Assembly: GCF_016887565.1 (NCBI RefSeq) | Contig: NZ_CP069396.1 | Coordinates: 5,686,001-5,750,000, forward strand | DNA: 64,000 nt | Direction of reading: 5' to 3' | Origin: Archangium violaceum | GTDB lineage: Bacteria > Myxococcota > Myxococcia > Myxococcales > Myxococcaceae | Shown: piece by piece, positions 2,568-19,993 of the stretch | Layout of the letters: each line of letters begins with the position of its first letter | How positions within the stretch are numbered: position 1 is the first letter of the stretch | Notes under the pieces: model-generated | The model's input: the letters and a program-made list of their open reading frames with translations, nothing else | What the model was told of the DNA's origin: nothing | Databases searched by the model: none | Position numbers and translations under genes: made by a program

Positions 2568-3602
2568 TCAAGCCAGGTCGCGCAGGTGGACGTCCAGGTG
2601 GGTATCCGAGGTGCCCAGGGTGCTCAGGTCATCGGTGGGGATGACGTAGCCCTGATCGGCGCCGACGTGCTTGCGGTAGAAGTCCACGACGCCCGGATCC
2701 TGGACGTTGGACGTGGTGGTCTTCTTGATGCCGTAGACGGAGCCATCGGCGTTGCGGGCCTTGACGGAATCGGGGGCGGAGGCCAGGAGGTTGTCCATGG
2801 TGCCGGACAGCTTGCCGCCACTCTGCGGCTTGATGGTCATGGCGGCGTTGTCGCCCTCGATGTAGCTCACGTCGTAGTAGGTCTGGTTGCCGCCGCCGTT
2901 GAACTTGACCTCGCCGAGCGTGGCCGCGGCCCCATCGCCGGACGTGCTGCGGAAGTTGCCGGACCAGCCCTGGGGGAACTCCACGGTCTGGGACTTGCCG
3001 GGTTGCAGCGTCACGGGGGCGACCTCCTTGTCACCGGCGTTCGGCGTGAACTTGATGGTCATCGGCGACTTGCCATCGTTGGTGAAGGTCATCGTGTTGC
3101 CCTGCTTCGAGGACGAAGGGCCGCCAGCCGAAGAGGCTCCCTCCGGCTTGGAGACCTGGGCGCTCGGGGCGGCCGGCGCGCTGGGGGCGACCGGCGCGCT
3201 TGGGGCGGCGGAGGCCTGGGGTGCTCCCTGGAGCAGCGACTGGAGGCCAGGGGCGCCACTGTCCACGCCACCAATCTCCGGCACCTCACCACCAGGAATC
3301 GACAGCGAGTCACCCGTGGCGTCACCGTTCAATCCGCCCAGCAGGTCCTTGCACAGGGTCACCAGCTGCTGCGCCACCTGATTGAGCAGCTGGTCCATCT
3401 CGGCCACACCGCCCGCCTTCGTCGCGCTCAGAGGGGAGTCGAATCCATCGGCCTGGAACAACTGCTCCAGGGGATTGCTCTGCTGCGAGCTCTGGAGTGC
3501 CGACACGCCCTTGCCCTGGCAGGAGGAGACCGACTCGGTGCCAGTCGTGCTCGGGATGGACGGGGAGAAGACGGGCGACCTGGAGATGGGGGAGAGCGCC
3601 AT
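2568..3602 (-). CDS. Protein with C-terminal thaumatin-like domain
   Basis: A 344-aa protein. The start at 3602 is chosen because GAGGA precedes it; the open frame continues upstream only through operator DNA. Residues 1-170 are low-complexity (Ser/Pro/Ala/Gly-rich) with no clear signal peptide. From about residue 170 a beta-rich domain contains MTFTNDGKSPMTIKF and YYDVSYIEGDNAAMTI. The latter resembles LTYVDHVGLPMQI in the thaumatin-like glucanase at 51391-52839, so a thaumatin-like (glucan-binding or lytic) fold is inferred; the catalytic residues are unclear. It lies downstream of the large leftward operon ending at 3805 but has its own sigma-54 promoter and three enhancer-like palindromes, so it can be expressed separately. 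Confidence 0.6.
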   Translation of the reverse strand: MALSPISRSPVFSPSIPSTTGTESVSSCQGKGVSALQSSQQSNPLEQLFQADGFDSPLSATKAGGVAEMDQLLNQVAQQLVTLCKDLLGGLNGDATGDSLSIPGGEVPEIGGVDSGAPGLQSLLQGAPQASAAPSAPVAPSAPAAPSAQVSKPEGASSAGGPSSSKQGNTMTFTNDGKSPMTIKFTPNAGDKEVAPVTLQPGKSQTVEFPQGWSGNFRSTSGDGAAATLGEVKFNGGGNQTYYDVSYIEGDNAAMTIKPQSGGKLSGTMDNLLASAPDSVKARNADGSVYGIKKTTTSNVQDPGVVDFYRKHVGADQGYVIPTDDLSTLGTSDTHLDVHLRDLA

Positions 3603-3668
3603 GGCGGGGTTTCCTCGGGAGCGAAGTGGAAGTGAGCGGCCACTTGCCGGCAGCACGAGCCACCATGA

Positions 3669-3684
3669 AGCAGGAGGTGTGCCA
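3669..3684 (-). promoter_or_regulatory. Sigma-54 promoter of the thaumatin-like gene
   Basis: The minus strand reads TGGCACACCTCCTGCT: the -24 element TGGCAC is perfect, GG and GC are ten bases apart, and the -12 element is CTGCT instead of TTGCT. The implied start is near 3659, about 57 bases ahead of the ATG at 3602. Confidence 0.75.
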
Positions 3685-3728
3685 ACGCTCACTTCCCTCT
3701 CGAGTCCCTCTTGTGGGAGGCAGGTCCT

Positions 3729-3800
3729 GGTGACCGCCGTCACCATCGGAGGGGCCGCGAATCTGGTGACTGCCGTCACGCCCTGGTGACTGCTGTCACC
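3729..3800. promoter_or_regulatory. Three GGTGAC-N4-GTCACC palindromes (enhancer sites)
   Basis: Copies at 3729-3744, 3765-3780 and 3785-3800 read GGTGAC(C/T)GC(C/T)GTCAC(C/G). They lie about 70-140 bases upstream of the predicted sigma-54 start, as expected for sites of a bacterial enhancer-binding protein. The half-site TGAC/GTCA is shared with the other palindromes in this region, but here the spacer is four bases instead of two. The third copy ends four bases before the stop of the gene at 3805. Confidence 0.65.
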
Positions 3801-3804
3801 ACCC

Positions 3805-5694
3805 TCAGCTCCCCGTGCTGATGAACCGGACCTTCTCCACGCCCTCGATCATCTCCAGGGCGAACTGGGCGGAGGTGAAACCACTTCCGCCCAGCCGGCC
3901 CTTCATGGCGTTCGCGAGGCTCCCGATGTCGACCACGCCGAGCTGCTCGTTCCGCCAGGGAATGGGGAGCGGATTGGACAGCTCGTCGCCGGTGGTCAGG
4001 TCCCGCAGGGTCTTGTGGTACTGGGGCGGGTTGCCCGTGGCCGCGTCCACGCCGAAATGCATGGCCTCGGGCTTCTGGTGGATGTCGACCGTCCTCACGT
4101 CGCCGTCGAAGAGGCACAGGAGCACGTTCGATGACAGCCGCTCCATGCGCACGATCGGAAGCGGCTGCACCGCGTCGGGGACGAAGTCCGCGTTGTCGAT
4201 GACCTGGGAATAACCGTCCACCAGGAGGTTCGGCCAGCCCGACACCACGTCCGAGCGCATCAGGAAGCCCGAGAGGTTCCCGTAGGGCGTCGCCAGGGGG
4301 TTCTCCGCGTCCTGCGCCACGTCGCCGTCCGTCACCCGGCCGATGCTGAACGCGCCGTCCAGCAGGCACTCCACCCAGCGCGCATCCACCCGGAAGAACC
4401 GGATCGACTCGATGGGCAGGAACCGCTCGTCCGGCACCAGGTAGTTGAAGGGCACGTTCTTCAGGAGGGAGAGATCCGAGAACCAGGTGGAGATCGTCGG
4501 GGGTACTTGCGAATCGGTCTCGGGCGCGGTCAGCGGCAGGTGCTCCACGGCCTGCTCGGCGGCCTTGATGTTCTGGGCCTGGCCCTGCTTCCAGTCGTAC
4601 AGGGCGAGGGCCACGCCCTGGTTCCGCAGGGTGAGCAGACGTCCCAGCTCCCAGGCCGCGGCGTACGAGGCGTCGAACATGCCGGTGCCCTGGTCGTAGC
4701 GGTACAGCTCATCGGCGTCGCGCACGGGCAGGTTCAGGAGGTCCGTCGTCTGGCCCGGCCGGAAGGGCCCATGGTACCAGGAGACGGTCTTGTCTCCCTC
4801 GCGCAGCCGGTGGCGCAGTGCCACGCTGCCCGTGGCGAGGGCCGCGTTCGCATCGGCGTTGCTCGAATTCGCGAGGCGGAACGTGTCGTGAGCCAGGTTC
4901 AGGAGGAGCTGGGAGAAGCTCTGCTTGTCGTCGAGGCACGAGAACTGGAAGTGTCGCAGGACGACCAGGCGGATCTTGTCGTCGTCCCCGGCGTTCTGGA
5001 AGTCGAACGTGTCGCCGCCGCTCGGGTAGCGCCCCTCCAGGGAGATCAGATACGCCGTGCTGCTCCCTCCATTCTGGGGCAGGCGGTTGGCGATCACCGT
5101 CGCGATCTCCTCGCCCGCGAGGTTGCCCGAGTCGTCCAAGGGCTGCCGCACGTGGGAGAGATAGGCGAGCTCACTCTTCAGGGGTAGCAGCTGGGAGAGG
5201 AGCCCCTTTTTCACGTCGATGACGGTGACCTTGTCGGTCGGCGCCTGACTGGGCTCGAGCTCGAACGCCGGGTAGCGCGCGGTGCTCGCGGGAGTGCTCT
5301 GGAGCTGGGACAGGGTGATGATCTGCGGCTGCGGCTTGTCATCCAGCGTGGGGAAATCCGAGTCTCGCAGGACCAGCAGGGCGAGCCAGGGCAGGCCGAG
5401 GTCCTGCTCATCCGGAGCGCGCTCCCAGGGCAGGGTGCTGCGCGTGAGCGAGATGTGCGCCAGCACGTTGTTGTGGTCGCCGAGGCTTGCATCGGGCGGG
5501 AACACGGCCGAGACGTCGCTCGCATCGAGCGTGGAGAACCGCTCTCCGGTGACGGCGAACGCCACCTCGCGCGAGTAGGTCTGGGCACTCGGGATCGTGT
5601 TGCTCTTCGTCGAGACGACCTGCTCGACCCGGATGCGGTAGGTCCCGCTCTCCATCGCGGGCTGGTGGTACTGGATGAACTCGACCTTGGGCAT
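3805..5694 (-). CDS. Uncharacterised 629-aa protein of the large tail-like operon
   Basis: I do not recognise a named family. The protein is soluble, with no signal peptide or membrane segment. It has a long central helical region and a conserved-looking stretch VPDERFLPIESIRFF followed by VDARWVECLLDGAFSIGR. I recall this kind of stretch from other large uncharacterised bacterial proteins but cannot tie it to a function. It is the last gene of a leftward operon, 27 bases after the DUF6603-like gene, so it probably works with the 1350-aa protein, the fibre-like protein and the metallo-beta-lactamase-fold protein. A structural part of a large extracellular or particle-like assembly is possible. 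That is inference from context only. Confidence 0.6.
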   Translation of the reverse strand: MPKVEFIQYHQPAMESGTYRIRVEQVVSTKSNTIPSAQTYSREVAFAVTGERFSTLDASDVSAVFPPDASLGDHNNVLAHISLTRSTLPWERAPDEQDLGLPWLALLVLRDSDFPTLDDKPQPQIITLSQLQSTPASTARYPAFELEPSQAPTDKVTVIDVKKGLLSQLLPLKSELAYLSHVRQPLDDSGNLAGEEIATVIANRLPQNGGSSTAYLISLEGRYPSGGDTFDFQNAGDDDKIRLVVLRHFQFSCLDDKQSFSQLLLNLAHDTFRLANSSNADANAALATGSVALRHRLREGDKTVSWYHGPFRPGQTTDLLNLPVRDADELYRYDQGTGMFDASYAAAWELGRLLTLRNQGVALALYDWKQGQAQNIKAAEQAVEHLPLTAPETDSQVPPTISTWFSDLSLLKNVPFNYLVPDERFLPIESIRFFRVDARWVECLLDGAFSIGRVTDGDVAQDAENPLATPYGNLSGFLMRSDVVSGWPNLLVDGYSQVIDNADFVPDAVQPLPIVRMERLSSNVLLCLFDGDVRTVDIHQKPEAMHFGVDAATGNPPQYHKTLRDLTTGDELSNPLPIPWRNEQLGVVDIGSLANAMKGRLGGSGFTSAQFALEMIEGVEKVRFISTGS

Positions 5695-5721
5695 GACGGT
5701 CTGCTCCTGGTGTCGGCCAGC

Positions 5722-8700
5722 TCAATGGACCTGCGGCGCGATGATGAAGCTATCGGCGACGGCGTTGGCATCGAGCCGGATGTCGTCGGCGCCGAACCCC
5801 AGGGCCGCGAGCATCTGGCTCCGCTTGTCGTTCTTGCCGACCGTGTTGCGGAGGGTGTCCCTCCGCTGGGAGTCATTCTCGCTGTTGGCCTGGAAGGCGG
5901 GGACGGGGGTCCAGGCGTAGGCGCCGTTGACGCACATCGTGTCGTATTGCAGCGCCTCGTTGTCGATTCCCGCGGTCACGCCTGCCTTCGGCGGGTCCGC
6001 GGGCGTGATGCGGTAGCCGCTCAGCGGATCGGCACCGGTCGCCCCATCGACGACGAACTGGGGATCGTTGACCCCGGGAGGCTGGATCCGGTCCGAATGA
6101 CCCGAGACCGTCGTGGCCACGCCCCACAGCGAGCTGGGCGCCTTCTGCGTGCTGGGCGTGAAGGCGAAGTGGCTCTCGACGGGCACGTCCTCGTCGCCGT
6201 AGGTGATCGTGATCCGGTGGGTGGACTGGAGATCGTCGGCATGGACGGCCATCGCGTAGATGCCGAAGTCCTGGCAGGCGCCTTCCGTTGGGAGCGCGGT
6301 ATCGCCGCTCGACCCGCGGAGCCCCTGCTTGATCGGGACGAAAGAGCCCGTGTCGAGCGCGAACTCCTTCGGGTTGACCACGTACAGGGTGTCAGAGCCC
6401 TGGGTGAGCTGCCGCTCGAGGCCGGAGCTGACCGCGATGCTCACGACGTCGCTGTCCGCGGGCATGTACTGGTCCTGGAACGTGCTCCAGTCGATGGCCA
6501 GCGGGTAGCGCGACGATTGATCGCCGAACGAGACCGTGACGCCGACGAAGACGATCTTGAATTTGGCGTGGCCCCCGAAGTCGGGCCCCCAGATGTGCAC
6601 GTCCACGCCCAGGTCGACGGGCCCGACGAATCCCACGCCAGCGCGGATCTCGACCCGGACCTCGAGGTCGTAATAGTACGGCTGCCAGGAGATGAGGAAA
6701 TCACAGCTGGCGCTGAAGTCGCAGTAGAGCGAGCCGGCCTTGTAATGAATCTCCGCGCTGCCGCCGGCCATCATCGCGTGGGCGCAGAGCGCGAAGTAGC
6801 TGCTGCCCTTGAGGAACGTGTCCCCGTCGATCTGCCAGTTGATGCCCAGGCGAGGAACCGTGGGGTAGTGACTGGGGACGTTGAAGCGGGGGTGGTAGCC
6901 GCCCAGGGTGATGACGAAATCGCCCGCGTGCGCGCCGGAATACCAGGCGTAGAACGCGAAGCCGCCGGTCAGGTGGCAGCCCTTGCCGAAGATGTACGAG
7001 GCCGGATCGAGCTCGGCGATGACGCCGAAGAACCCATCCGACGGGATGAAGCTCGCCTCGAGCAGCATCCGCAGCTCGGCCAGCGGGCTCTTCACTTCCT
7101 CCCCGTGCGGGATGCACAGATCCGCGACGCCCAGGAGGTCCACCTCGAAGCGCGACCCCAGGTCGACGCTCAGGAGCGCGAAGCAGTCGACCATCTTGAA
7201 GGAGGAGAACTTCACGCCCACCGCGATGAAGCCCGCGCCGATGAGCGGGGGGATGTAGCTGTCGATCTTCAGCAGCTCGTTCTGGAGGATCTCCGCCTGG
7301 TTCGCGGTGTTGCTGATGTCCGGCAGATCTCCAGAGATGGCTTCGGCGACCAGGGGGAAGGTGGCGACGCCGTCGATGGGTGGAACGATCAGCGTGCGGT
7401 TCCAACCAAAGCCCGCCGACACGGCCTCCACCGACAGGAACGGCGGACCGCCGATGGGGATGTCGAGCACGGCGTAGAGGAACAGCGAGGGATTGCCGTC
7501 GATCTCCGCGTACGAGCCGATGGCGTGCAGGCCGAGCGCGTTGTCCTCGACCTGGACCTCGACCACGGCCTCGCCATCGTACTCATCGAAGGTGTGGTTG
7601 TTCTCGGTCACCTGCGTGTGCAGGAGCGAACCACCGATCTCGAGGCAGTCGTTCTTGTAGTCGAGGCTCAGGCCCTCGAGGTGGAAGGTGGGATCGAGCT
7701 TCGTCAGCGGTGAGCTGACCCCCAGCCCGTCGAGCGCGGCCGACAGGCCGGCGATGCTCAGCGAGGCATTCACCAGGAACCAGAGCTGATCGTCCTGGTA
7801 CTGCATCCCCACCTTCTCGATGTGGACCGGACCGATGGACTTCTGGACCGAGTACCACGTCGCGCCGCTCGAGCCCCCCGAGCTCGCCACGATGGCGGAC
7901 TTCGTGTCCGTCGACGGGACGACGTTGCCGTTGTCGTCCATCTTCACGGGCAGATCCACCTGCTGGACCGTGTCCCCGATCGTGATGGTGCCGCGAAAGG
8001 TCAGCCCTGAGTCGATGGCCTGGGGCAGGAGCTTCACGCCCTGCTGTTGGAACAGCGGGACGAGCGCGTTCACCTCGCCCTGATCGAAGGCCGCGGAGGC
8101 GATGGAGACGCCATAGGTGAGCTTGATGGTCTCGCCTGATGGGAAGTACTGACCGATGAGCGGGAGCTCGGACAGATCGATGCCGGAGTTGAGGTCCACC
8201 TCGAAGAGCATCTTGCCGCTCCCCTGGGGCGAGACATCCGCGAAGGCGGCATCCACCAGCGAGACGGAGAGCCCGTCGGGAACCACGTTCGCCAGGCTCG
8301 TGGAGACGCTGGCGACCAGCTGCTTCACGTTCGTGGACGTGCCGGAGGGGCTGGTGTAGCTGGTGATGCCTGTCTTTCCGAAGGTGGTCTGGTTCGAATA
8401 GGAGTCGAAGTCGATCTGCCCGAGCGTGTCCCAGGTGGTCGTCAGCGAGAACGTATCGTCGCTGGTGTCGGCCGTGGCCTGGAGGTTCGTCAGCACGAGG
8501 CTGTTGACGAAGTTTGGAACCTGGACGCCGAAGGTGCTGGTCAGCTCAGTGATGAGCTTGCCCACGGGGAGCTGCTGGTCACCCCGGGTCCCGCCGGAGA
8601 AGAGCCAGCCCGTGGCGTTCTGGGGGTGCTGGGCCGAGCCGAAGAGCTGGACGCCGGCGAGGGTGAAGTTCGCGTCGATTCCGCCGGACCCGGGGCTCGA

Positions 8701-9444
8701 GCCCGTGCCGGCCATGTTCATCCCCAGGTCGTTCAGGGTGACGCCCGGGATGAGCTGCCAGTTCTGCTGCACGTCACATTGAAAGGACCAGCCCAGGGAG
8801 CGCGGATCGAGGCCGAGGATGAGGCGGGTGATCGTCCAATCCCCCGGCAATCCCAGGCCCGGCACGAGCTGATCGAGCAGGGGCTTCAGGTCCACGACCG
8901 AGCCATCCTCGAGCTCGCAGTGCAGCTCCAGCGAGGGGAGCATCAGGATGACATCGAGCAGGATCCCATTGAGGTTCAGCTTGCCCAGCAGGTAGCACGA
9001 CAGGGTGGGCGAGGAGCCGTAGGGATAGGCGAGCGTGTAGGAGATATCGAGGGCGTTCAGCGCGAACGTCCCGGGGATGAGGGTCCAGGGGCTCGTGGAC
9101 TGGACCTCCACCACCAGCGAGGCCACCTGCGCGAGCCGGGTATCGACGACGACGGTCAGGCTCTGCAGCCCGAGGAGGCTCGAGAGGGGAATCTGGGCGG
9201 GGATGACGCCGAAGTCCACGCCAGTGACGAGCTGGGCGAGGGCCGAGACGCCGGAGAGGTCCACCCCGCTGCAATCCGTGACGGCGACCCGCAGGCTGCC
9301 CCCGCCCTGAACGGGCCCGGTGGCGCGCAGCACGAGCGTCTTCGACCCTCCTTGTGCTTGGAGGGTGTACTGCACCCCGCTGCCCAGGAGATCGGGGAGC
9401 AGGTCCGGGTTGGCCAGATCCTTCAGACTGCTGATTGATTGCAT
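5722..9444 (-). CDS. DUF6603-like giant protein (1240 aa)
   Basis: Very long beta-rich protein without signal peptide or clear membrane helix. The N-terminal 650 residues are repetitive, with recurring patterns such as LNGILLDVILMLPSLELHCELEDG and evenly spaced hydrophobic strands. The middle holds SAGFGWNRTLIVPP and the stretch up to about residue 1000 is rich in aromatic beta strands (YYDLEVRVEIRAGVGF), which together resemble DUF6603 proteins. No catalytic motif is visible. It sits 34 bases downstream of the metallo-beta-lactamase-fold gene and 27 bases upstream of the 629-aa gene, clearly in one operon. A structural or lipid/surface-binding role is conceivable, but the function is unknown. 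Confidence 0.65.
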   Translation of the reverse strand: MQSISSLKDLANPDLLPDLLGSGVQYTLQAQGGSKTLVLRATGPVQGGGSLRVAVTDCSGVDLSGVSALAQLVTGVDFGVIPAQIPLSSLLGLQSLTVVVDTRLAQVASLVVEVQSTSPWTLIPGTFALNALDISYTLAYPYGSSPTLSCYLLGKLNLNGILLDVILMLPSLELHCELEDGSVVDLKPLLDQLVPGLGLPGDWTITRLILGLDPRSLGWSFQCDVQQNWQLIPGVTLNDLGMNMAGTGSSPGSGGIDANFTLAGVQLFGSAQHPQNATGWLFSGGTRGDQQLPVGKLITELTSTFGVQVPNFVNSLVLTNLQATADTSDDTFSLTTTWDTLGQIDFDSYSNQTTFGKTGITSYTSPSGTSTNVKQLVASVSTSLANVVPDGLSVSLVDAAFADVSPQGSGKMLFEVDLNSGIDLSELPLIGQYFPSGETIKLTYGVSIASAAFDQGEVNALVPLFQQQGVKLLPQAIDSGLTFRGTITIGDTVQQVDLPVKMDDNGNVVPSTDTKSAIVASSGGSSGATWYSVQKSIGPVHIEKVGMQYQDDQLWFLVNASLSIAGLSAALDGLGVSSPLTKLDPTFHLEGLSLDYKNDCLEIGGSLLHTQVTENNHTFDEYDGEAVVEVQVEDNALGLHAIGSYAEIDGNPSLFLYAVLDIPIGGPPFLSVEAVSAGFGWNRTLIVPPIDGVATFPLVAEAISGDLPDISNTANQAEILQNELLKIDSYIPPLIGAGFIAVGVKFSSFKMVDCFALLSVDLGSRFEVDLLGVADLCIPHGEEVKSPLAELRMLLEASFIPSDGFFGVIAELDPASYIFGKGCHLTGGFAFYAWYSGAHAGDFVITLGGYHPRFNVPSHYPTVPRLGINWQIDGDTFLKGSSYFALCAHAMMAGGSAEIHYKAGSLYCDFSASCDFLISWQPYYYDLEVRVEIRAGVGFVGPVDLGVDVHIWGPDFGGHAKFKIVFVGVTVSFGDQSSRYPLAIDWSTFQDQYMPADSDVVSIAVSSGLERQLTQGSDTLYVVNPKEFALDTGSFVPIKQGLRGSSGDTALPTEGACQDFGIYAMAVHADDLQSTHRITITYGDEDVPVESHFAFTPSTQKAPSSLWGVATTVSGHSDRIQPPGVNDPQFVVDGATGADPLSGYRITPADPPKAGVTAGIDNEALQYDTMCVNGAYAWTPVPAFQANSENDSQRRDTLRNTVGKNDKRSQMLAALGFGADDIRLDANAVADSFIIAPQVH

Positions 9445-9478
9445 CGCCGCGTCCTTTCCCGTCGCTCGCCCTGGTTCA

Positions 9479-10486
9479 CTAGGTCCGCTGGAGATCGACC
9501 GAACCGTCGTCCTTGATCACGTAATGGTAGCTCCCGCCTTCCTGGTGGGGATGGAGCTGATAGAGCGTGGTGTAGACCCCTTCACGCGCGTTGAGCTGGG
9601 TGAACACCCGGTTGATGTCTTCGAAGAAGACGAAGTCATGGGCGTTGAAGGCAGACAGTGGGGACCACGTGTCGATGTTGCTGATCGTCGTCGAGTTGGG
9701 CAGGCCCGTGCCGCCGAAGGGGCGGGTATCCGAGCTGATGAAGAGGATCTGGGGCAGGATTTTCTGGATGAAGGCCTGGGACGAGGACGTGCGCGCGCTC
9801 CCGTGGTGTCCCACCTTGAGCGCCACGCGATTCTCCGGACCGATCGGATCGAGCAGTGTCGCGCCAGCGGGGTGTTCTGGAATAGGGACGCCGCTGAAGG
9901 CCGCCAGGGAGTAATGCTGGACGATGTGTTTCTCGGTGGCCACCGTCGCGTCGCCCATGAGGTAGACCTTGAGCTCCTGGTACAGGATCAGCAGCACGAC
10001 GCTGTTCGTGTTCTTGTCGGCGTACGCGGTGTTCGGGTGGTTCGCCGCCAGGACCCAGACGTAGACCCCATCGGTCGGCGCGGAGAGATCCGCGTTGGGT
10101 GTGTTCGGCGGATCGGAATAATTGTCCTGGCCACAGATGGCATTGACGCTGGGGTGGCTCCGCAGGAAGTTCGCGGTGTTGTTCACGGTGTAGTCGGCGA
10201 CGTCTCCGCCGTACAGCACGTGTTGGAAGTTGATGCCGGCCGTGACGAGCCCCTGGATCATGTTGTAGTGGTCCACGTCGGCGTGGGTGAGGACCAGCGT
10301 CTTGATGGTATTTCCCCCCGGTGTGGCGGGGAGATACATGTTGAGGACGTTCACGATCTCGGGTGCGACCACACCCTTCGATTTGGTGCTGCCGCAATCG
10401 ATGAGCATGAGCGAGCCGTCCGGGTACACCACGAGCGTGGAGTCCCCCTGTCCGGCATCCATGAAGACGACACGCAGTTCAGCCAT
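9479..10486 (-). CDS. ComEC/Rec2-like metallo-beta-lactamase-fold hydrolase
   Basis: A 335-aa cytosolic protein with the metallo-beta-lactamase fold. It opens with VVFMDAGQGDSTLVVYPDG and LIDCGS, continues with the metal motif THADVDH (His68, Asp70, Asp72, His73; the HxDxDH form of stand-alone ComEC-type domains), and later has MGDATVATEKH and VGHHGSARTSS, which supply further ligands. All key metal-binding positions appear present, so it should be an active hydrolase; a phosphoester or nucleotide substrate is typical of the family. It lies between the fibre-like gene (18 bases upstream) and the DUF6603-like gene, so it is the one obvious enzyme of this operon. Confidence 0.82.
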   Translation of the reverse strand: MAELRVVFMDAGQGDSTLVVYPDGSLMLIDCGSTKSKGVVAPEIVNVLNMYLPATPGGNTIKTLVLTHADVDHYNMIQGLVTAGINFQHVLYGGDVADYTVNNTANFLRSHPSVNAICGQDNYSDPPNTPNADLSAPTDGVYVWVLAANHPNTAYADKNTNSVVLLILYQELKVYLMGDATVATEKHIVQHYSLAAFSGVPIPEHPAGATLLDPIGPENRVALKVGHHGSARTSSSQAFIQKILPQILFISSDTRPFGGTGLPNSTTISNIDTWSPLSAFNAHDFVFFEDINRVFTQLNAREGVYTTLYQLHPHQEGGSYHYVIKDDGSVDLQRT

Positions 10487-10504
10487 GGGATCCTCGACGC
10501 GGGC

Positions 10505-12742
10505 TCAGACGGAGAAGGTGTTCACGACATTGACGAATTCCCGCCGGATGAAGAGCGCCTGGATATTCCAGAAGCTATCGGGGCCCCCAATCACGTCGCA
10601 GGAGAGAATCCAATTATTACTGCCGCTATGGGATCCTGGCAGGAAACAGATACCCTCCATGGATTTGCTACTCAGCTTCGCATTGACGCCGGCGATGACG
10701 GCGACCCAATCGTTGAAGTTGTAACCCGTGTCGATGTTCGGGCTGTCCTGATTGACAATGTAGAGCTGGTACGCCATGGGTCTCTGGCCCTTGTACAGGA
10801 TGGATCCGTCGCTCTGGATGGTGAGGATCGCGTTCCCGTTCATGTCACGCACCCGGAACAGGTCTTCGTCCGGCGGTGACTGGTCGACGTTGGGGTAGAG
10901 ATCGATCGTGCCCCAGTTCTTGATCGGACCATCGACGCGCAGGCTCCCTCCCGAGATGTGCAGCGTCTCCGCAGGGCTCGTCGTGCCGATGCCGATGTTC
11001 CCGCCGGTCGTCACCGCCATGCGTGTCGTTCCGCTCTCGTCCGAGTCGAAGAGCAGGTTCTTGTCGAAGGTGATCCGGTTCTGGGAGTCCTGGGCCTTGA
11101 GCTTCAGGGTCCCGCCATCGCCGCGCTGAATCGCGACGGCGACGTTCGCGCCCGAGCGATAGACGTGCAGCGCTTCCGAGGGGCTCGTGGTACCGATGCC
11201 GAGGCTCCCGGAGTTGATGCCGAGGTTTCCCGAGGTGTCCAGCACCATCTGCGCCTGGCTGTTGTTGGTGTAGAACGAGAGGTTGTGGTTCGACTGTGTC
11301 CCCAGCCAGCCTCCCGTGCTGCTGACGTAGCTCGAGAGCCTGACGTTCCCGTCGGTGTGGGTGATTCCATACGATCCCGACCCCGTCTGCACCTCGAGCG
11401 TCTCGCTCGGACTGGTCGTGCCGAGACCCAGCTTCCCGTTGCTGGTGCCGGTCATGACCACGTTCCCGTTCATGTCCCGGAGCCGGAGCAGGTCCTCGTC
11501 GGACGGCGATTTGTCGGTGTTCGGCTGGAAATCGATCGGGCCCCAGCTCTTGTACTGGCCGTCGACGCGCAGGTTCCCCCCGTTCGCGACGTGCAGTTGC
11601 TCCTCGGGGGCCGTCGTGTTGACTCCCACCCGGTAGAGCACGTTGTTCTGATAGAACATGGGCAGCTTCTGGATGTTCAGCTGCGCCTCCCCATCTGGAT
11701 GGTCCGGGAAGTCCTCATACCGCAGGTGCAGCGTCGTCTGTCCCGTCGCGTACCCCGTGACGATGTTGGAGATGGGGATCTCCAGGCTCTCGCCCGGGGC
11801 CAGGCTGGTCTTGCCGGCCCCGGGGGTGAGCGTCCAACGATTCGAGTCATCGGGTCCGCTGACCTGCCAGCTCCCGTTTCCGGACCAGCTCGTGTCGATG
11901 CCAGAGCTGTCCTCCTTTCCGGGGAGGTAGATGTCATGCACCTGGCTGTCGGCCGAGAGTGCCCAGCGGTCGTTGTTACTGCTCGACGTGTCGAAGAAGA
12001 GCACGAGCTGGGTGGGGCTGCCGCTGCCCTGTGGGCTCAGGTTGATGGCGTCCTGACCCGTGTTCACCAGCCGCACCACCAGCAGGTTCTTGGAGGTGCC
12101 GTCGTTGGCGACGACGTTGGGGGTGCTGAAGGACGCGTAGAGGGGCAGGGGGCTCGCGGCGGCGTTGCTCGGAGGACTCACGATGTCGAACGTCCTTTGC
12201 TCGGTCAGTTGGTAGGGGTTTCCCTGCCCATGAATGAGATCCTGGGACGGGGGGTCGAACTCCACGACGTAGGACGACTCATTCCAGTTGAAGGTCGCCA
12301 CGCTGGACCGCTCGCCACCCTGCGAGGCGGCGCCGATGTTCGTGGCGTTCAAGGTCAGCGGGTTCTGCGGATTGATGCGCAGCGTGCTCTTGCTGAGCAG
12401 GTACAGTGACACTCCGGTCTTGGAGTCGTTCGTGCCCGTCGGGTGCTGGACGCAGGCGAAGGACCATTGCGCCGTGTCACTCACCTTGATTCCGGTGGCC
12501 CCCGCGAGCGCGCCCGGGTCGAAGTAGAGCTCGAAGTGGTAATTGCTGGCGCTCGCGACCTGGTTCGTCTGTGGTATCAGCGTGATCGTCACCCCTGGAT
12601 TGGCCAGGCACTGGATCAGCACCGCCACGGTGTCCGCCGCGTTGGGCGTATCCGTGATGAGGATCTGGTTCGCGAGAGGCTGAGCCTGCCCCTGCAATGG
12701 CCAGGAGAAGTCGAAGGCGAAGGCTTGAATGGGTGTCGTCAT
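10505..12742 (-). CDS. Phage tail-fibre-like repeat protein, copy 1 (745 aa)
   Basis: Starts MTTPIQAFAFDFSWPL; the start overlaps the stop of the 1350-aa gene in an ATGA, implying translational coupling. Residues 1-340 form a conserved N-terminal region. Residues 340-650 are fibre-like repeats with GLGTTSPSETLEV, SLGIGTTSPSEALHV and NIGIGTTSPAETLHI, the motif typical of trimeric phage tail fibres and large bacterial surface fibres. The last 90 residues form a separate tip (YNFNDWVAVIAGVNA to ALFIRREFV). No S74 chaperone/peptidase motif was seen. The paralogue at 17111-19414 is almost the same in the N-terminal part but differs in the tip. It probably acts as a binding fibre for the products of this operon. 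Confidence 0.75.
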   Translation of the reverse strand: MTTPIQAFAFDFSWPLQGQAQPLANQILITDTPNAADTVAVLIQCLANPGVTITLIPQTNQVASASNYHFELYFDPGALAGATGIKVSDTAQWSFACVQHPTGTNDSKTGVSLYLLSKSTLRINPQNPLTLNATNIGAASQGGERSSVATFNWNESSYVVEFDPPSQDLIHGQGNPYQLTEQRTFDIVSPPSNAAASPLPLYASFSTPNVVANDGTSKNLLVVRLVNTGQDAINLSPQGSGSPTQLVLFFDTSSSNNDRWALSADSQVHDIYLPGKEDSSGIDTSWSGNGSWQVSGPDDSNRWTLTPGAGKTSLAPGESLEIPISNIVTGYATGQTTLHLRYEDFPDHPDGEAQLNIQKLPMFYQNNVLYRVGVNTTAPEEQLHVANGGNLRVDGQYKSWGPIDFQPNTDKSPSDEDLLRLRDMNGNVVMTGTSNGKLGLGTTSPSETLEVQTGSGSYGITHTDGNVRLSSYVSSTGGWLGTQSNHNLSFYTNNSQAQMVLDTSGNLGINSGSLGIGTTSPSEALHVYRSGANVAVAIQRGDGGTLKLKAQDSQNRITFDKNLLFDSDESGTTRMAVTTGGNIGIGTTSPAETLHISGGSLRVDGPIKNWGTIDLYPNVDQSPPDEDLFRVRDMNGNAILTIQSDGSILYKGQRPMAYQLYIVNQDSPNIDTGYNFNDWVAVIAGVNAKLSSKSMEGICFLPGSHSGSNNWILSCDVIGGPDSFWNIQALFIRREFVNVVNTFSV

Positions 12743-15700
12743 TCTCGAGTCCCGTTTCCGCTGGTCTCCGTGCTGGACAGCTTCAGCCACCCCTCGCAGA
12801 GGAGCTGCTCCCCCGCGAAGCGGGCCGTCGTGTCGGGGGGCGTGAAGTTGGCTGACTCCAGCCAGTTGCCGCCCAGGTTGTTCAACCAGGACCACGCGTA
12901 TCCGCCCTCCTGGGGCAGCGCGGCCTGGAGTTGTTGCTGGTCCGGTGGTTGTTCGTAGGTCGCGCGCGGGGTCATGAGTGGCGCGGACAGGAACGTCACC
13001 TCCAGCGCGGCGATGGCGCCGGCATACTGATCCGACGGGACTCCGATGGCCTTCGTTGGCAGGACGCCGCTCGTCGCGTGGACCCGCCCGCGCGGATCCA
13101 CCAGCAAGGCGAGCGTCTTGGGTGCCTCCCCGGGTGCATGCAAGACGTCCACGGGCGCGTTCTTCGCCGTCTGGATGCTCCGGGGCTCCCCGGAGGCGGT
13201 CGCGAGTCCTTCGTTGTCGCTCTGGGGTGCGTAGAACACGTTGCCCGCGTAGCCCCCCTGTCCATCCTCGAGCCAATAGCCCGCCAGACCATCGTTGTAC
13301 TGGCTGAACTCGCCGATGCGGATCGGCAAGCGCACGCCCTGGAACGCCTGGGTGATGCTGTCGGGGCTCTCGGTCACGGGCGTGACCGTCCCGTTCTCGT
13401 GATAGGCCTGGACCTCGTTCAGGAAGAGGTCCCAGCCCTCGTCGCGCGCGGGCTGTCCCTTCAGCTCGATGGAGACCGAGGCCCTGACCAGGGCCAGCGG
13501 GCGTCCCACGAGCAGTGCCATCGCCTTGTGCTGAGCGTAGTCCTCCGGGTTGATGTTCTGGATGGCGTCATCCAGCGTCGACAGGAAGGAGGTGGTGAAT
13601 GCCTCGCCGCTCGTGAGGTTCGACGTCATGTATTGCACCATGGCCCGGAGGTGCGGGTTCTGGATGGACGCCACGTCGATCACGTGGAGCCGTCCCGGCG
13701 CCGAGCGCCACCGCCCCTCCGAATCGACGAGCCCCAGCAGGCCGCCATCGGCCTCGTAGATCATCAGGCTGTTGTCGAGGTTGTTGGGCAACACCCACCC
13801 GCAGATGGGCGAGGTGGCGGGGTGGGCGTTCATCTCCGCCTCGTCGTTGCCATTCACGGGCTCGGCGGACAACCAACGGAAGGACACGCGCGCCGCCTGG
13901 GCCAGACGTGGCAGGAGGCGGATGCGGCAATCGTCGCTGGTGGGGTAGCGCAGGGGCATCTGCTCGGTGGAGCTGATGACACACCCGGCGGAGGGATCGA
14001 CCTGGAGGTCGTTGACCTGACCAAAGGTGTCCACCAGCCGCAGCGCGGAGATGCGCATCTCTCCGCTCCGGATCGGGGTGAAGTCGTTGTTGGGCAGGGG
14101 GGCGCTGAGCAGGCCATTGCGCACGGTCCCCTGGACCTGCAGGGCGAGCTGCATGTCGTCATCGTCGCCCGTCGGGTCGCCAATGGGGAGCTGCATGATG
14201 CGCTGCTGGGTGAGCAGGGCATCATTGAATCCGCCCAACGCTTGAGACAGGCAGGGCAGTGTCTTGAGCGCGTTGTACGACGACAGCGCGGTCACGATGG
14301 GATCGTTGTCACCCTTGGGCTGGTAGGACGCGAGGGTGGCCGTCAGATCCTGTGCGTCCAGGAGGGTGACCGCCTGCTCCACCGTCAAGCCCTTCAGCTC
14401 GGTGTCGAGCGGCGGGGGCAGGACCGCGCACTGTGTCACCAGATAGTCGGCGATCCACTGCTTGAGCTTCTCTCCCGCGTGGGAGCTCAGCAGGGAGAAG
14501 CCCCGGTAGGGCCGCTCGTCGCTCGAGATGTCCTGTTGCGTGGGCGAGAGGTCCACCGCGGTCTGGGGCAGGGTGTAACGGCTCGTGACGTAGTCGGTGG
14601 GGTAGTTGCCGTTCACCACCGTGTCGGGGAAGAACTGCACCTCCCATTCGAGGATGGCCGGGTTCCATGGCTGTTGGGTCCACCAGGAGAAACCCGCCGT
14701 GTCCGTGCCCGGGCTCGGCTGCTGGTTGTCCATGAGCTGGCGGATCTGGTCGACGAGCTCGCTGTGGTGGGGCAGGTCCTGCAGCGCCGCGTCGTCCACG
14801 TTGGGCAGGAGCAGGCACGGCAGGAGGCCGTCGTCGCTGTCGCTCCCGTCTTCTCCATGGCGATCGGTGGGCAGCACGGTATCGCCCACCATCAGGACGA
14901 CGGGCTCGTTCGCATGCCAGTAGCGCGAGTGGGGCACGGGGCCGAGGGTGTAGTCGGGCGAGACGCTGGTCGCGGCGGTGCGCAGGTTCGAGACGGCCTG
15001 TGCGAGCCGGGTCGCGAGCTGATCCGGCAGCGGCGGGATGTAGAGGTTCATCTGGCCCTGCTCCACCTTGACCAGGTAGGTCGTGGAGCCGTCCTGGATC
15101 TGCCAGACCTTGCCCTCGTCCCCGCCGGAGATGCCCCCGGGCGGCTGCACCACGATGGCGTTCGAGGACAGCTTGATGCCGCAGTTCTCGAGCTCGCCGA
15201 ACCAGGTGTCGGAGTTGGTCAGGTTGCCCTGGAGCAGGTCGTTCTCGTAGTCGCTGTAGTAGCTGATGTCCTTCGAGACGATGCCGAAGCCGACGCTCGT
15301 CGTCTGCACGTCGAGCAGGCCGGTATTCGGATCCCGGCTCCATTGCAGCTGGCCCGTCTGGGTGATGGACGTCCGCATCGGGGGGATGCCGCTCATGAAG
15401 ACGGTCCAGAAGGCGTCCTCGAGGTTCCCGGGCCACTTCTCCTCCTCGAAGCCCTCGGGGTGGCGGCAGATCTGGTACTTGTACCAGTCACGGAAGAGCC
15501 GCTCGCTCATGCTGCCGATGGCTTCCTGCGCCTCGTCGTACTGCTCCTGCAGCTCGTTGAGCTCGTTCAACTGATCGGCGAGTGAGTCGGGCAGGGTGAT
15601 CTGGAGGCCGGGCTTGCGGCTCTTGCTGCCAGGCTTGCCGCTCCGGATGGACCAGGTCACGCCGCCGAAGACACCCGTGAAGCCCTTCTGGTGGCGCAGC

Positions 15701-16791
15701 TCGAACAACCGCGCCCGCTGGTCGAGCTTCTGCTGCTCGAGCTCGTTGATGAACTGCATCGCCTCGAGCTGCTCCTCGAAGACGGATTTGTTCGCCGGTG
15801 CCAGGGTCTGCGCCAGATAGGCGGAGAGCGCCTCGGTACCCGTGTTTCCGACGGAGAGGGAGACATTCCGCGCGGTCGCATCCGGGTTGTCCCTGGGCCC
15901 GTTCTGGAAGGTGAGGCGGGCATAGCAGACGGTGCGATCGGGAAAGGACTGGGCCCCGACGTCCACGTTCCAGTCGAGCTCCTCGTTGAGCTCCTCGACC
16001 ATCTGCTGTGAATCGTTCTTGTCGGGATTCTGGGTGTACCAGAGCCCCATGAAGTCCTGGCTGGGATCGCCGTACCAGCCGATGACGTCGTAGGCCAGCC
16101 CCTGCGGGTTCGTGTACGCCGAGGGGTCGTCATCCCGGAAGCCGAAGACGCTGAAGCAGTTGGGGTAGAAGGCGGCGAACGAGCTCTTGATGTGGTCGAG
16201 CGTGTTCACCCAATCGAACGGCCCCACGGAGGTGAGCGCGAGGCCGTACTGCTTCAGGTATTCGGCGTTGGGGTCGTTCTGGGTCCAGCTCGCCTGGGGA
16301 ACCTTGCGCCCCATGTGGCGGAAGGGTTGGTAGGGTCCGCTCGTGGGATTGATCTGGGAGAAGGGGACGGTGACGGCGTCGGGCAGCTGAGCGCTCAGGA
16401 TGGACAGGTCGGGATGGAGGTAATCACTTTCGACGACCCACTGGTTCTCGATGTTGCCGTTGCGGCGCCGGATGATGAGCCATCGGTTGGGGACGATGGG
16501 GAATTTGCGATTGCCCGCGGAGTCCCCCTCGTCGCTGTGGGTCAGCGTGTCGGGCAGGGCCCAGTGCAGGTGGATGCCGGGTGGCAATTCCAGGATGCTG
16601 CTGGTGAAGGGGGGCGAGAGGATGTTCTCGCTGAGGTTGGGCGTCTCCCTCGACGGATGGACCTGGGGTGAGCCGCCCTGCTCGTAGGTGAACGGCAGGC
16701 CGCTGTAATCGATCAGGGCCTCGCGTATGCCTGTGCTCTTCGTCAGGCAGAGGGCGTCCAGATACATGGGCACGAGCAGGACGGAGTGCAT
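12739..16791 (-). CDS. Uncharacterised 1350-aa protein, first gene of the operon
   Basis: The start at 16791 (MHSVLLVPMYLDALCL) is set by the ribosome site AAGGAAATCC just upstream and by conservation of this leader in the duplicated copy; the open frame 5' of it is leader DNA. No signal peptide or membrane helix is seen. Residues 40-130 contain LPPGIHLHWALPDTLTH and FPIVPNRWLIIRR. A long predicted coiled coil (QAMQFINELEQQKLDQRA-like, then LADQLNELNELQEQYDEAQEA) lies around residues 310-430. The rest is mixed alpha/beta. No named family is recognised. It heads the operon and is coupled by a 4-base overlap to the fibre-like gene. Upstream is an almost fully deleted second copy (19411-19699). 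Confidence 0.68.
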   Translation of the reverse strand: MHSVLLVPMYLDALCLTKSTGIREALIDYSGLPFTYEQGGSPQVHPSRETPNLSENILSPPFTSSILELPPGIHLHWALPDTLTHSDEGDSAGNRKFPIVPNRWLIIRRRNGNIENQWVVESDYLHPDLSILSAQLPDAVTVPFSQINPTSGPYQPFRHMGRKVPQASWTQNDPNAEYLKQYGLALTSVGPFDWVNTLDHIKSSFAAFYPNCFSVFGFRDDDPSAYTNPQGLAYDVIGWYGDPSQDFMGLWYTQNPDKNDSQQMVEELNEELDWNVDVGAQSFPDRTVCYARLTFQNGPRDNPDATARNVSLSVGNTGTEALSAYLAQTLAPANKSVFEEQLEAMQFINELEQQKLDQRARLFELRHQKGFTGVFGGVTWSIRSGKPGSKSRKPGLQITLPDSLADQLNELNELQEQYDEAQEAIGSMSERLFRDWYKYQICRHPEGFEEEKWPGNLEDAFWTVFMSGIPPMRTSITQTGQLQWSRDPNTGLLDVQTTSVGFGIVSKDISYYSDYENDLLQGNLTNSDTWFGELENCGIKLSSNAIVVQPPGGISGGDEGKVWQIQDGSTTYLVKVEQGQMNLYIPPLPDQLATRLAQAVSNLRTAATSVSPDYTLGPVPHSRYWHANEPVVLMVGDTVLPTDRHGEDGSDSDDGLLPCLLLPNVDDAALQDLPHHSELVDQIRQLMDNQQPSPGTDTAGFSWWTQQPWNPAILEWEVQFFPDTVVNGNYPTDYVTSRYTLPQTAVDLSPTQQDISSDERPYRGFSLLSSHAGEKLKQWIADYLVTQCAVLPPPLDTELKGLTVEQAVTLLDAQDLTATLASYQPKGDNDPIVTALSSYNALKTLPCLSQALGGFNDALLTQQRIMQLPIGDPTGDDDDMQLALQVQGTVRNGLLSAPLPNNDFTPIRSGEMRISALRLVDTFGQVNDLQVDPSAGCVISSTEQMPLRYPTSDDCRIRLLPRLAQAARVSFRWLSAEPVNGNDEAEMNAHPATSPICGWVLPNNLDNSLMIYEADGGLLGLVDSEGRWRSAPGRLHVIDVASIQNPHLRAMVQYMTSNLTSGEAFTTSFLSTLDDAIQNINPEDYAQHKAMALLVGRPLALVRASVSIELKGQPARDEGWDLFLNEVQAYHENGTVTPVTESPDSITQAFQGVRLPIRIGEFSQYNDGLAGYWLEDGQGGYAGNVFYAPQSDNEGLATASGEPRSIQTAKNAPVDVLHAPGEAPKTLALLVDPRGRVHATSGVLPTKAIGVPSDQYAGAIAALEVTFLSAPLMTPRATYEQPPDQQQLQAALPQEGGYAWSWLNNLGGNWLESANFTPPDTTARFAGEQLLCEGWLKLSSTETSGNGTRE

Positions 16792-17067
16792 GGATTTCCT
16801 TCCCGGGGCCGCACCGGGACACGAATGAGCGCGGCGTGGAGCGGCGTCTGGGTCATGAAAACCTTCGACGCACTGTTGAGTCAAGGATGAATCAGAAAAA
16901 CCATGAATGCCGTGAAGATTTGCAAGGCCGTTATACGTTTCTGTGTCGACTGACGTGTCAGCCGGCTCCGCTGCTGTGCCGGACGACATGTCAGCCGCAC
17001 CGTCAGGATGACGGACTTGTTGCGGACGAGGTGGATTGCGTGAAAGCGATTCGTGGAGGCTTGGGAG
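16792..17067 (-). promoter_or_regulatory. Leader of the 1350-aa operon with two TGACRTGTCA palindromes
   Basis: No gene is seen here. CTGACGTGTCAG (16950-16961) and ACGACATGTCAG (16983-16994) lie 33 bases apart, three helical turns, about 160-200 bases before the ATG at 16791. Downstream, the minus strand has a -10-like TATAAC (16930-16935). No good sigma-54 element was found. Much of this leader, including ATTCATGGTTTTTC, is repeated in the second copy upstream of 19699, which suggests it is functional regulatory DNA. Confidence 0.5.
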
Positions 17068-19414: not shown

Positions 19415-19699
19415 TCTCGAGTCCCGTTTCCGCTGGTCTCCGTGCTGGACAGCTTCAGCCACCCCTCGCAGAGGAGCTGCTCCCCCGCGAAGCGGGCCGT
19501 CGTGTCGGGGGGCGTGAAGTTGGCCGACTCCAGCCAGTTGCCGCCCATCATGAGTGGCGCGGACAGGAACGTCACCTCCAGCGCGGCGATGGCGCCGGCA
19601 TACTGATCCGACGGGACTCCGATGGCCTTCGTCGGCAGGACGCCGCTCGTTGCGTGGACCTGCCCGCGCGGATCCACCAGCAAGGCCAGCGGAGTGCAT
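19411..19699 (-). pseudogene. Deleted relic of the 1350-aa gene
   Basis: Only the ribosome site, ATG and two to three codons of the 1350-aa gene remain, joined out of frame to its last ~100 codons (LLVDPRGQVHATSGVLPTK onwards to SGNGTRE). The C-terminal piece has a second internal deletion (SAPLM joined directly to MGGNWLESANF). The relic's frame ends in the ATGA that overlaps the start of fibre copy 2. Because the junction changes frame, translation from the preserved ATG at 19699 does not make this relic; it runs instead into the fibre-like gene. Confidence 0.8.
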
Positions 19700-19856
19700 G
19701 GATTTCCTTCCCGGGCCGCACCGGGACACGAATGAGCGTGGCGTGGAGCGGCGTCTGGGTAATAGAAATTCTCAACGTCCTTTTGCGTCAAGGACAAAGG
19801 CGAAAAACCATGAATGCCGTGAAAATTTGCAAAGCTGATACACGTGTCTGTGTCGC

Positions 19857-19901
19857 CTGACGTGTCAACCGGCTCCGCGGATGTGTCGGCCGACATGTCA
19901 A
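19857..19901. promoter_or_regulatory. Two TGACRTGTCA palindromes upstream of unit 2
   Basis: CTGACGTGTCAA (19857-19868) and CCGACATGTCAA (19890-19901) are 33 bases apart, the same spacing as at 16950-16994, and about 160-200 bases before the ATG at 19699. The TATAAC seen in unit 1 is changed to TATCAG here, so unit 2 may be expressed less or differently. Confidence 0.5.
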
Positions 19902-19993
19902 CCGCGCAGTCAGGGTGACGGACTTGTTGCGGACGAGGTGATCCGACCCTTTACTGAGGTCGAAGCCCCCCAGCCCAGAAGACGAGCCGTCAC

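Follow-up and report, generated by a model that had tools for sequence, protein, structure and literature searches.

A widespread four-gene core with an exchangeable slot, seen in Archangium violaceum, as a candidate module for fibre-assisted enzyme delivery

We analysed a stretch of 64,000 nucleotides (hereafter the window) from the single-contig, 13.2-Mb genome of Archangium violaceum (NCBI RefSeq assembly GCF_016887565.1, contig NZ_CP069396.1, positions 5,686,001 to 5,750,000), in which five leftward genes form an operon at window positions 3805-16791. We propose, giving it about an even chance of being correct, that this operon represents a widespread and hitherto undescribed type of module, in which a fibre helps to bring an enzyme to its target cell. 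On the minus strand throughout, the operon encodes g1 (12739-16791; 1350 amino acids (aa)), a core protein without a known family; the fibre (10505-12742; 745 aa), composed of an N-terminal anchor of ~360 aa, a beta-helix shaft of the GIGT..P type, and an exchangeable C-terminal tip; the slot gene (X), here a ComEC-like enzyme of the metallo-beta-lactamase (MBL) fold with its metal-binding motif kept (9479-10486; 335 aa); g4, a DUF6603 protein (5722-9444; 1240 aa) with the Pfam domain at residues 533-1008; and g5 (3805-5694; 629 aa), again a core protein without a known family. An earlier, sequence-only reading had described five leftward open reading frames (ORFs) with these sizes and tight spacing, and the rechecked coordinates agree, giving a 4-base ATGA overlap between g1 and the fibre followed by gaps of 18, 34, and 27 bases.

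Genome comparison points to a co-inherited core

We scanned 84,980 species genomes with a profile of g5, the best-conserved core member among seven aligned copies. Because the scan requires two short peptide patterns of g5, the 64 loci that it recovered are a lower bound. Going by record titles and the taxonomy that we take to apply to them, these loci belong to Cyanobacteriota, Myxococcota, Bacteroidota, Chloroflexota, Pseudomonadota, Actinomycetota, Acidobacteriota, Verrucomicrobiota, KSB1, and Kapaibacteriota; plasmid copies in Paenibacillus add Bacillota, and those in Streptomyces and Embleya are further Actinomycetota. In the DNA fetched for the 64 loci, g4 was present in 55, g1 in 41, the fibre in 38, and all four in 29. 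Where at least 1.5 kb of upstream sequence was available, the gene immediately upstream of g5 is g4 in 53/57 loci (exceptions, L034, L037, L051, and L075); all core matches are on the same strand in 63/64 loci, and the gene order is mostly g1-fibre-X-g4-g5 or X-g4-g5-g1-fibre, i.e. a single cyclic order. Nearer to the window, g1 was detected in 9 of 98 related genomes (5 of 46 genera). The six relatives with an intact g1 and enough contig to be read (L013, L014, L015, L017, L018, and L019; L016 stops at a contig edge) keep the order g1-fibre (one or two)-g4-g5, with nothing between fibre and g4. Among 195 Myxococcota genomes, DUF6603 was found in 13 and g5 in 10, with both in 9. Because it is conserved in other genomes, the core cannot be a fortuitous series of ORFs and, as judged by these comparisons, g1, fibre, g4, and g5 are a co-inherited four-gene core. 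The conserved neighbourhood envisaged in the sequence-only reading holds for these four genes and fails for the MBL.

These data bear directly on the possibility that the operon is a prophage remnant or a set of unrelated neighbours. The fibre does match phage tail-fibre PHROGs (E 6.2e-9), and the window MBL matches two PHROGs (E 2e-12 and 6.9e-12), one of which is annotated as a tail protein. However, the core is kept as a set across phyla, and g5 had no match in 50,697 phage records and no relative in an IMG/VR scan; we regard this origin as extremely improbable.

To describe the surroundings of the module, 563 neighbouring ORFs were clustered by blastp (>55 bits) rather than scanned with Pfam; the families recurring in at least three loci were those of the slot, a group resembling protein kinases, and two small groups whose distance from the module varied. 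Some individual copies are of note. Herpetosiphon aurantiacus DSM 785 has two copies (L047 and L059) ~28 kb apart with an MBL in both slots and diverged g5. On the Paenibacillus polymyxa plasmid p-YT9A (L086), genes for DUF4280, phage baseplate assembly protein V, and GH-E nuclease lie within ~12 kb upstream, and the copy on a Streptomyces sp. NBC_01276 plasmid (L096) lies beside CATRA and CHAT-domain conflict genes and transposases. Locus L020 (genome G047) has only a truncated g1, with ~390 residues in one frame and ~100 more in another, and no other core gene was matched in the 20 kb read; this reduced copy shows that modules are lost and not only acquired.

Slot contents are exchanged between module copies

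The MBL, taken as a fixed member of the operon in the sequence-only reading, proved to be one of several genes that fill an exchangeable slot; in the 8 further myxobacterial copies with a readable slot it is missing. Outside Myxococcota, a non-conserved gene occupies this position in most loci. We read the slot by hand in 50 of 73 loci, a set that lies apart from the actinobacterial and Paenibacillus plasmid copies; the other 23 were dropped because of contig ends, broken or unclear copies, or, for L027, identity with the locus L019. The slot was empty in 8 loci and held an MBL in 12 (window included), a cluster B protein in 7, a cluster C protein in 8, another recognised enzyme in 6, and an unassigned protein in 9, and all-against-all comparison of the slot genes yielded several unrelated clusters. 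The six other enzymes are class-3 lipases in L050 and L062 (E 2.4e-15 and 4.5e-14), a Bd3614-type deaminase in L032 (E 9e-13), a subtilase in L083 (E 2.9e-23), an endo/exonuclease-phosphatase in L084 (E 5.9e-8), and a DUF4135 protein in L073 (E 7.5e-29). Sub-threshold Pfam rows were ignored, including APH in L054 (17.1 of 23.2 bits) and Anthrax_toxA in L069:1434-4877 (15.9 of 25 bits), which is not the slot gene there. An endo/exonuclease-like motif in the L039 slot gene was not borne out by Pfam, and this gene was counted as unassigned. Proteins of cluster B (458-1114 aa) and cluster C (156-823 aa, with the lower value from a broken copy) matched no recognised Pfam family. Several cluster B proteins (L022, L024, L057, and L065) have basic, nuclear-localisation-like C-terminal tails, which in the pooled comparison were not significant over neighbours; in that comparison of slot proteins, one nuclear-localisation-like pattern reached 3.0x shuffles versus 1.8x in neighbours, and the idea was dropped.

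Exchange is most directly seen between close relatives. Because 21 of the 51 inner branches of a quick g5 tree are open, we used only its starred sister pairs, of which L048 (unassigned)/L050 (lipase), L024 (cluster B)/L025 (MBL), and L032 (deaminase)/L039 (unassigned) have different slots. In these three pairs, identity is 86, 76, and 61% for g5, 75, 62, and 61% for g4 over the aligned part, and 60, 80, and 44% for the fibre, while the slot genes within each pair do not match one another at E 0.01. Over labelled rows, the tree requires at least 13 changes of slot state (without a shuffle control). On the strength of these comparisons, the position between fibre and g4 is a slot at which genes are exchanged on a constant core.

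In the sister pairs, DNA similarity ends in the fibre or a few hundred bases past it and returns only inside g4, and therefore the N-terminal part of g4 (~residues 1-532; 7849-9444, minus strand) changes together with the slot gene. In a comparison of 630 locus pairs, all from loci with a filled slot, same-slot pairs were more alike in the N-terminal part of g4 than C-terminal similarity predicts, and 0/2000 label shuffles gave a value as high. Single same-slot pairs go both ways; for instance, L024 and L041, both with cluster B, have dissimilar N-terminal parts. Because the shuffles ignore relatedness of the loci and same-slot pairs disagree, the covariation is only suggestive, and we tentatively propose on this basis that the N-terminal part of g4 may be a cargo adaptor.

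The slot MBL is a probable hydrolase

The window MBL (PF00753, E 4.3e-8) has the ComEC-like motifs THADVDH, GD, and HHGS. An H.D.DH-type motif together with downstream ligands forms the metal site of MBL-fold enzymes, and in the 12 aligned slot MBLs, of which that of L055 is a fragment with its N terminus cut by a contig end, GD, TH.D.DH, GD, and HH are present in all or nearly all. The slot MBL is probably a hydrolase, and because of its resemblance to ComEC we suggest a nuclease or phosphodiesterase. When the window MBL alone was compared with 72,556 plasmids, 59 records matched, the first four being Embleya sp. NBC_00896 and three S. clavuligerus records; in the Embleya record and the one S. 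clavuligerus record that were opened, the MBL is the ORF directly upstream of the module g4. The S. clavuligerus slot gene is sub-threshold for the Pfam MBL profile (21.8 of 22.7 bits) and matches a profile built here from the slot MBLs at E 8e-38. Among the 98 relatives, MBL matches at E<=1e-10 occurred in 3 genomes; besides the slot gene itself, the window genome has one at a distance of 2.7 Mb from it, G001 has one 2.7 Mb away from its module, and the third genome, G005, has one and lacks a g1 match, so that all three lie outside a module.

The MBL also brings in an alternative, namely an intracellular anti-phage or conflict system in which the core would sense, the slot enzyme would be an exchangeable effector as in Avs or Lamassu, and the fibre would be a sensor or decoy made from phage tail parts. 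The window MBL resembles the models of LmuA, RT-associated MBL, Avs1a, and 6A-MBL, and has its fold and motif in common with anti-phage MBL effectors (Avs1, Lamassu, and 6A-MBL) and the ComEC MBL domain. In addition, effectors of defence systems are also exchanged, the Streptomyces plasmid copy is near a CATRA/CHAT conflict locus, and no clear signal peptides were seen in the crude scan described below. However, the window MBL scores far under the NCBIfam cut-offs (Avs1a, 32.3 of 420 bits; 6A-MBL, 30.6 of 220 bits; the LmuA model has no stated cut-off), its partner genes had no PADLOC match, and no core protein has an NTPase or known sensor domain in Pfam, PHROGs, NCBIfam, or PADLOC. Moreover, lipases and a subtilase are among the slot contents, and the Laminin_G_3, S74, and collar modules of the fibres are surface-binding or trimerising modules that are hard to explain intracellularly. 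We consider a defence system unlikely.

No clear signal peptides are seen in a crude scan

Signal peptides were assessed by a crude hydropathy scan only. A signal-like N-terminus was not seen in the fibre, MBL, g4, or g5, while the N-terminus of g1 is moderately hydrophobic (best 12-residue mean 1.95 versus 2.02 in a lipoprotein-like protein encoded downstream). Because the g1 start has no lysine or arginine ahead of it, belongs to a motif kept in homologues, and is preceded by extra residues in some of these, we read it as part of the fold. The statement in the sequence-only reading that no protein shows a signal peptide is retained for four proteins and qualified for g1.

This observation is relevant for a second alternative, a cell-surface adhesive or degradative complex in which the proteins would stay on the producer and the enzyme would break down prey or matrix outside it without being delivered into a target. 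Hosts of the module include the predators Herpetosiphon and myxobacteria, lipase, subtilase, and nuclease would suit digestion, and the mosaic adhesive trimeric (MAT) fibres of Bdellovibrio were reported to be located on the predator surface (PMC10769870). Against such a complex, none of the five proteins has a clear signal peptide in the scan, and a deaminase of the nucleotide type, as present in one slot, would be of no obvious use extracellularly. We judge a complex of this kind distinctly unlikely.

Fibres have exchangeable tips

The window fibre matched the Bd2133 MAT fibre (PDB 8ond; E 3.1e-6) and the Bd3182 crystal construct (E 0.0099), and no Pfam family at E 0.001. By eye, its tip resembles those of L013-L015 and L030. 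Among 45 fibre proteins, the Pfam tips or modules found were Collar (13), Peptidase_S74 (8), Laminin_G_3 (7), and Gp10_C (6).

The window contains a second fibre gene (17111-19414, minus strand; 767 aa) directly upstream of g1, overlooked in the sequence-only reading, and preceding it a remnant of a g1 copy (19414-19749, minus strand) that matches g1 residues 1212-1350 and lies beside a copied upstream region. Together they form a partial tandem copy, in which the region before g1 (16782-17033) recurs at 19690-19940 with 86.5% identity, a piece of the g1 3' end (12972-13115) at 19548-19691 with 97%, and most of the fibre (10806-12875) at 17454-19547 with 87%, whereas the copy retains little of g1. 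Identity between the two fibres falls from 87% in the anchor to 72% in the shaft and 29% over the last 100 residues; the tip has thus either been exchanged or evolved rapidly. In three other two-fibre loci, identity of anchor/shaft/tip is 78/74/72, 65/30/44, and 60/42/42%, a less sharp drop. Taking tip families and tandem fibres together, comparison indicates that fibre tips are exchangeable between module copies, and the variable tip noted in the sequence-only reading is borne out. In L085-L088, the fibre profile had no match, and in the actinobacterial copy of Embleya the gene that follows g1 directly, at the place of the fibre, encodes an F5/8 type C (discoidin) domain (L088:21230-23296; E 9.8e-13); because of these two observations, we suggest that a different binding part may take the place of the fibre there.

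MAT fibres of Bdellovibrio bacteriovorus carry a signal peptide ahead of a conserved domain of ~130 aa at the N terminus, and include S74 and non-S74 members with exchanged tips (PMC10769870). The window fibre is similar in its beta-helix shaft sequence and in having exchangeable S74 or other tips on a constant N-terminal part; it differs in having an anchor of ~360 aa, in travelling with g1, g4, and g5, and in lacking a signal-like N-terminus in the crude scan. Because no signal peptide was found, we describe it as MAT-like but do not class it as MAT.

Extracellular contractile injection systems (eCIS; PVC, Afp, and MAC) are also similar to the module in having fibres with exchangeable binding modules, S74 and lectin types among them (PMC12923769), and varied enzymatic cargo (PMC8213781). 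The module differs in that its core genes include no sheath, tube, baseplate, or terminator (Pfam, five proteins), and no such family recurs beside it among the clustered neighbours. It might nevertheless be a separate accessory that equips eCIS particles, encoded at another locus, with a fibre or a cargo assembly. In support of this idea, the eCIS marker Pvc16_N (PF14065) is present, among the 98 relatives, in 8/9 genomes with a g1 match versus 26/89 others (Fisher p 0.0008), within the family in 8/9 versus 15/49 (p 0.0017), and above cut-off in 26/49 module genomes outside the relatives, with one more below; for comparison, one survey found eCIS in 1.9% of genomes and associated with larger genomes (PMC8213781). 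The P. polymyxa plasmid copy is also 9-12 kb from baseplate-V-like and DUF4280 genes. However, 22/49 module genomes have no Pvc16_N match, including Herpetosiphon aurantiacus, Sorangium cellulosum, and a Balneolaceae, with records titled complete genome or chromosome; the sole Pvc16_N match in the window genome is ~1.3 Mb from the module, and the co-occurrence was not controlled for genome size. We tend to attribute the co-occurrence to a lifestyle in common, or at the most to cooperation between two separate systems, and consider an eCIS accessory very unlikely.

Core proteins g1 and g5 match no known family

g1 had no match in Pfam, PHROGs, NCBIfam, or PADLOC, and g5 had none in these databases except for a single 12-bit Pfam row. 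By contrast, g4 matched DUF6603 (PF20248, E 1.6e-130, 436.5 bits versus the 27-bit profile cut-off), which upholds the DUF6603-like call of the sequence-only reading as PF00753 does its metallo-beta-lactamase call; the only other g4 rows in the four databases are two at chance level, one of them PHROG virion structural (E 0.17). g1 had no PDB sequence match at E<=1, profile searches found no solved relatives of g1 or g5 and a single chance-level row for g4 (E 0.5), and a comparison of g1 and g5 profiles gave no detectable relation. As for the likeness to phage-tail, contractile-injection, and toxin-complex parts raised in the sequence-only reading, the fibre's match to tail fibres stands, whereas g1 and g5 had no match to phage-tail, baseplate, or toxin-complex families in profile and structure searches and g4 had only a chance-level row.

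In an AlphaFold2 model of g1 residues 151-1350 (mean pLDDT 75, pTM 0.75; the initial 80 residues modelled with low confidence), the protein is alpha+beta with one 42-residue helix and has no Foldseek match below E 0.001 in PDB or BFVD. Resemblance to TcdA1 (Z 5.1 over 91 residues) and TcdA4 (Z 4.8 over 85 residues) was rejected as noise-level, as was that to the Anabaena CIS baseplate (Z 3.7). The model of g4 residues 46-1240 (mean pLDDT 81, pTM 0.57) consists of antiparallel strands in long runs, and 14 of the 44 strands examined, some of them short, have one all-hydrophobic face. LptD, ushers, ApoB, and porins ranked highest in Foldseek and VIA-align, with low TM-scores and large rmsd. We do not take these rankings to indicate a pore, because LptD, usher, and ApoB matches at E 3e-5 to 2e-4 have query TM-scores of 0.12-0.14 and porins at Z ~14-15 have an rmsd of 11-14 Angstrom, as expected of a generic beta meander. 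The predicted g4 sheet would fit with covering or enclosing something hydrophobic; the partly amphipathic DUF6603 sheet may itself wrap lipid or cross a target membrane.

Two further toxin classes are relevant for comparison. Polymorphic toxin systems have constant delivery parts and an exchangeable enzymatic part, with deaminases among the latter, and the module resembles them in this division; they exchange the C-terminal domain of a trafficking protein, whereas the module swaps a separate gene within an operon. Tc toxin complexes consist of large proteins with an enzymatic payload; the module is similar in having large proteins and an enzyme and differs in that its payload is a separate gene, and neither a TcA pore nor an RHS-repeat cocoon had a Pfam match in g1, g4, or g5, the structure rows of g1 being at noise level. 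In the full-text literature outside subscription journals and preprints, we found no paper with DUF6603 and none suggesting such a module.

A model for fibre-targeted enzyme delivery

We read the module as a non-contractile, fibre-targeted enzyme-delivery complex that would form, be released, and deliver as follows. g1, the fibre, g4, and g5 would be its core, as their co-inheritance in the comparisons suggests, and the slot between fibre and g4 would in many copies provide an exchangeable enzyme, here an MBL-fold hydrolase acting on a substrate of the kind suggested above. The fibre, a putative beta-helical trimer by analogy with its MAT and phage relatives, would be held by its N-terminal anchor, and its tip, for which exchange is seen in the comparisons, would set the surface recognised; the two window fibres with different tips would widen the range. 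In line with the covariation, the variable N-terminal part of g4 would hold the cargo and the constant DUF6603 sheet would join it to the rest. Because no clear signal peptide was seen, we suggest that the complex is assembled inside the cell and freed by lysis or another route, after which the fibre would dock and the enzyme would act on or in the target. The view of the enzyme as likely cargo in the sequence-only reading is supported. At somewhat less than an even chance, the module would represent a delivery machine of a new class, derived neither from phage tails nor from Tc toxins and present in at least ten bacterial phyla, in which two giant scaffolds and a DUF6603 beta-sheet carrier, matched by its variable front part to the exchangeable enzyme, are combined with MAT-like fibres bearing exchangeable tips.

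Several points weigh against delivery. The 8 empty slots, all in Myxococcota, show that those copies carry no slot gene, and 24 of the 42 filled slots (clusters B and C and the 9 others) have no recognised enzyme family, so that the term enzyme slot rests on 18 loci; Pfam was run on part of the 12 MBLs, the rest being placed by blastp and alignment. The label shuffles in the covariation test are blind to relatedness, and 4 of the 195 Myxococcota genomes have DUF6603 but no detected g5. Among the 563 clustered neighbours, no lysis or export gene recurs with the module, and neither does an immunity gene, although one unique to a locus would escape. The absence of signal peptides comes from a crude scan, with the start of g1 moderately hydrophobic, and the other three nuclear-localisation-like patterns were not above neighbours, so that such motifs lend no support.

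In at least ten phyla, three protein families of ~630, 1240, and 1350 aa, none with a known function, are thus associated with one another and with an enzyme slot and fibre tips that are both exchanged. If delivery by the module is correct, this would be a system separate from secretion systems, tailocins/eCIS, and Tc toxins, and its slot would be a catalogue of new cargo proteins, clusters B and C included. The module gives DUF6603 a testable role and is a candidate weapon of predatory or multicellular bacteria.

Two ORFs lie downstream of the operon on the minus strand, and neither was matched in the loci of the eight relatives compared. The ORF at 1024-2430 encodes the lipoprotein-like protein mentioned above, with a match to the MXAN_6640 metalloprotease domain under the cut-off (60.6 of 140 bits), and the product of that at 2568-3779 has a thaumatin-family match (30.3 bits versus a cut-off of 27.4).

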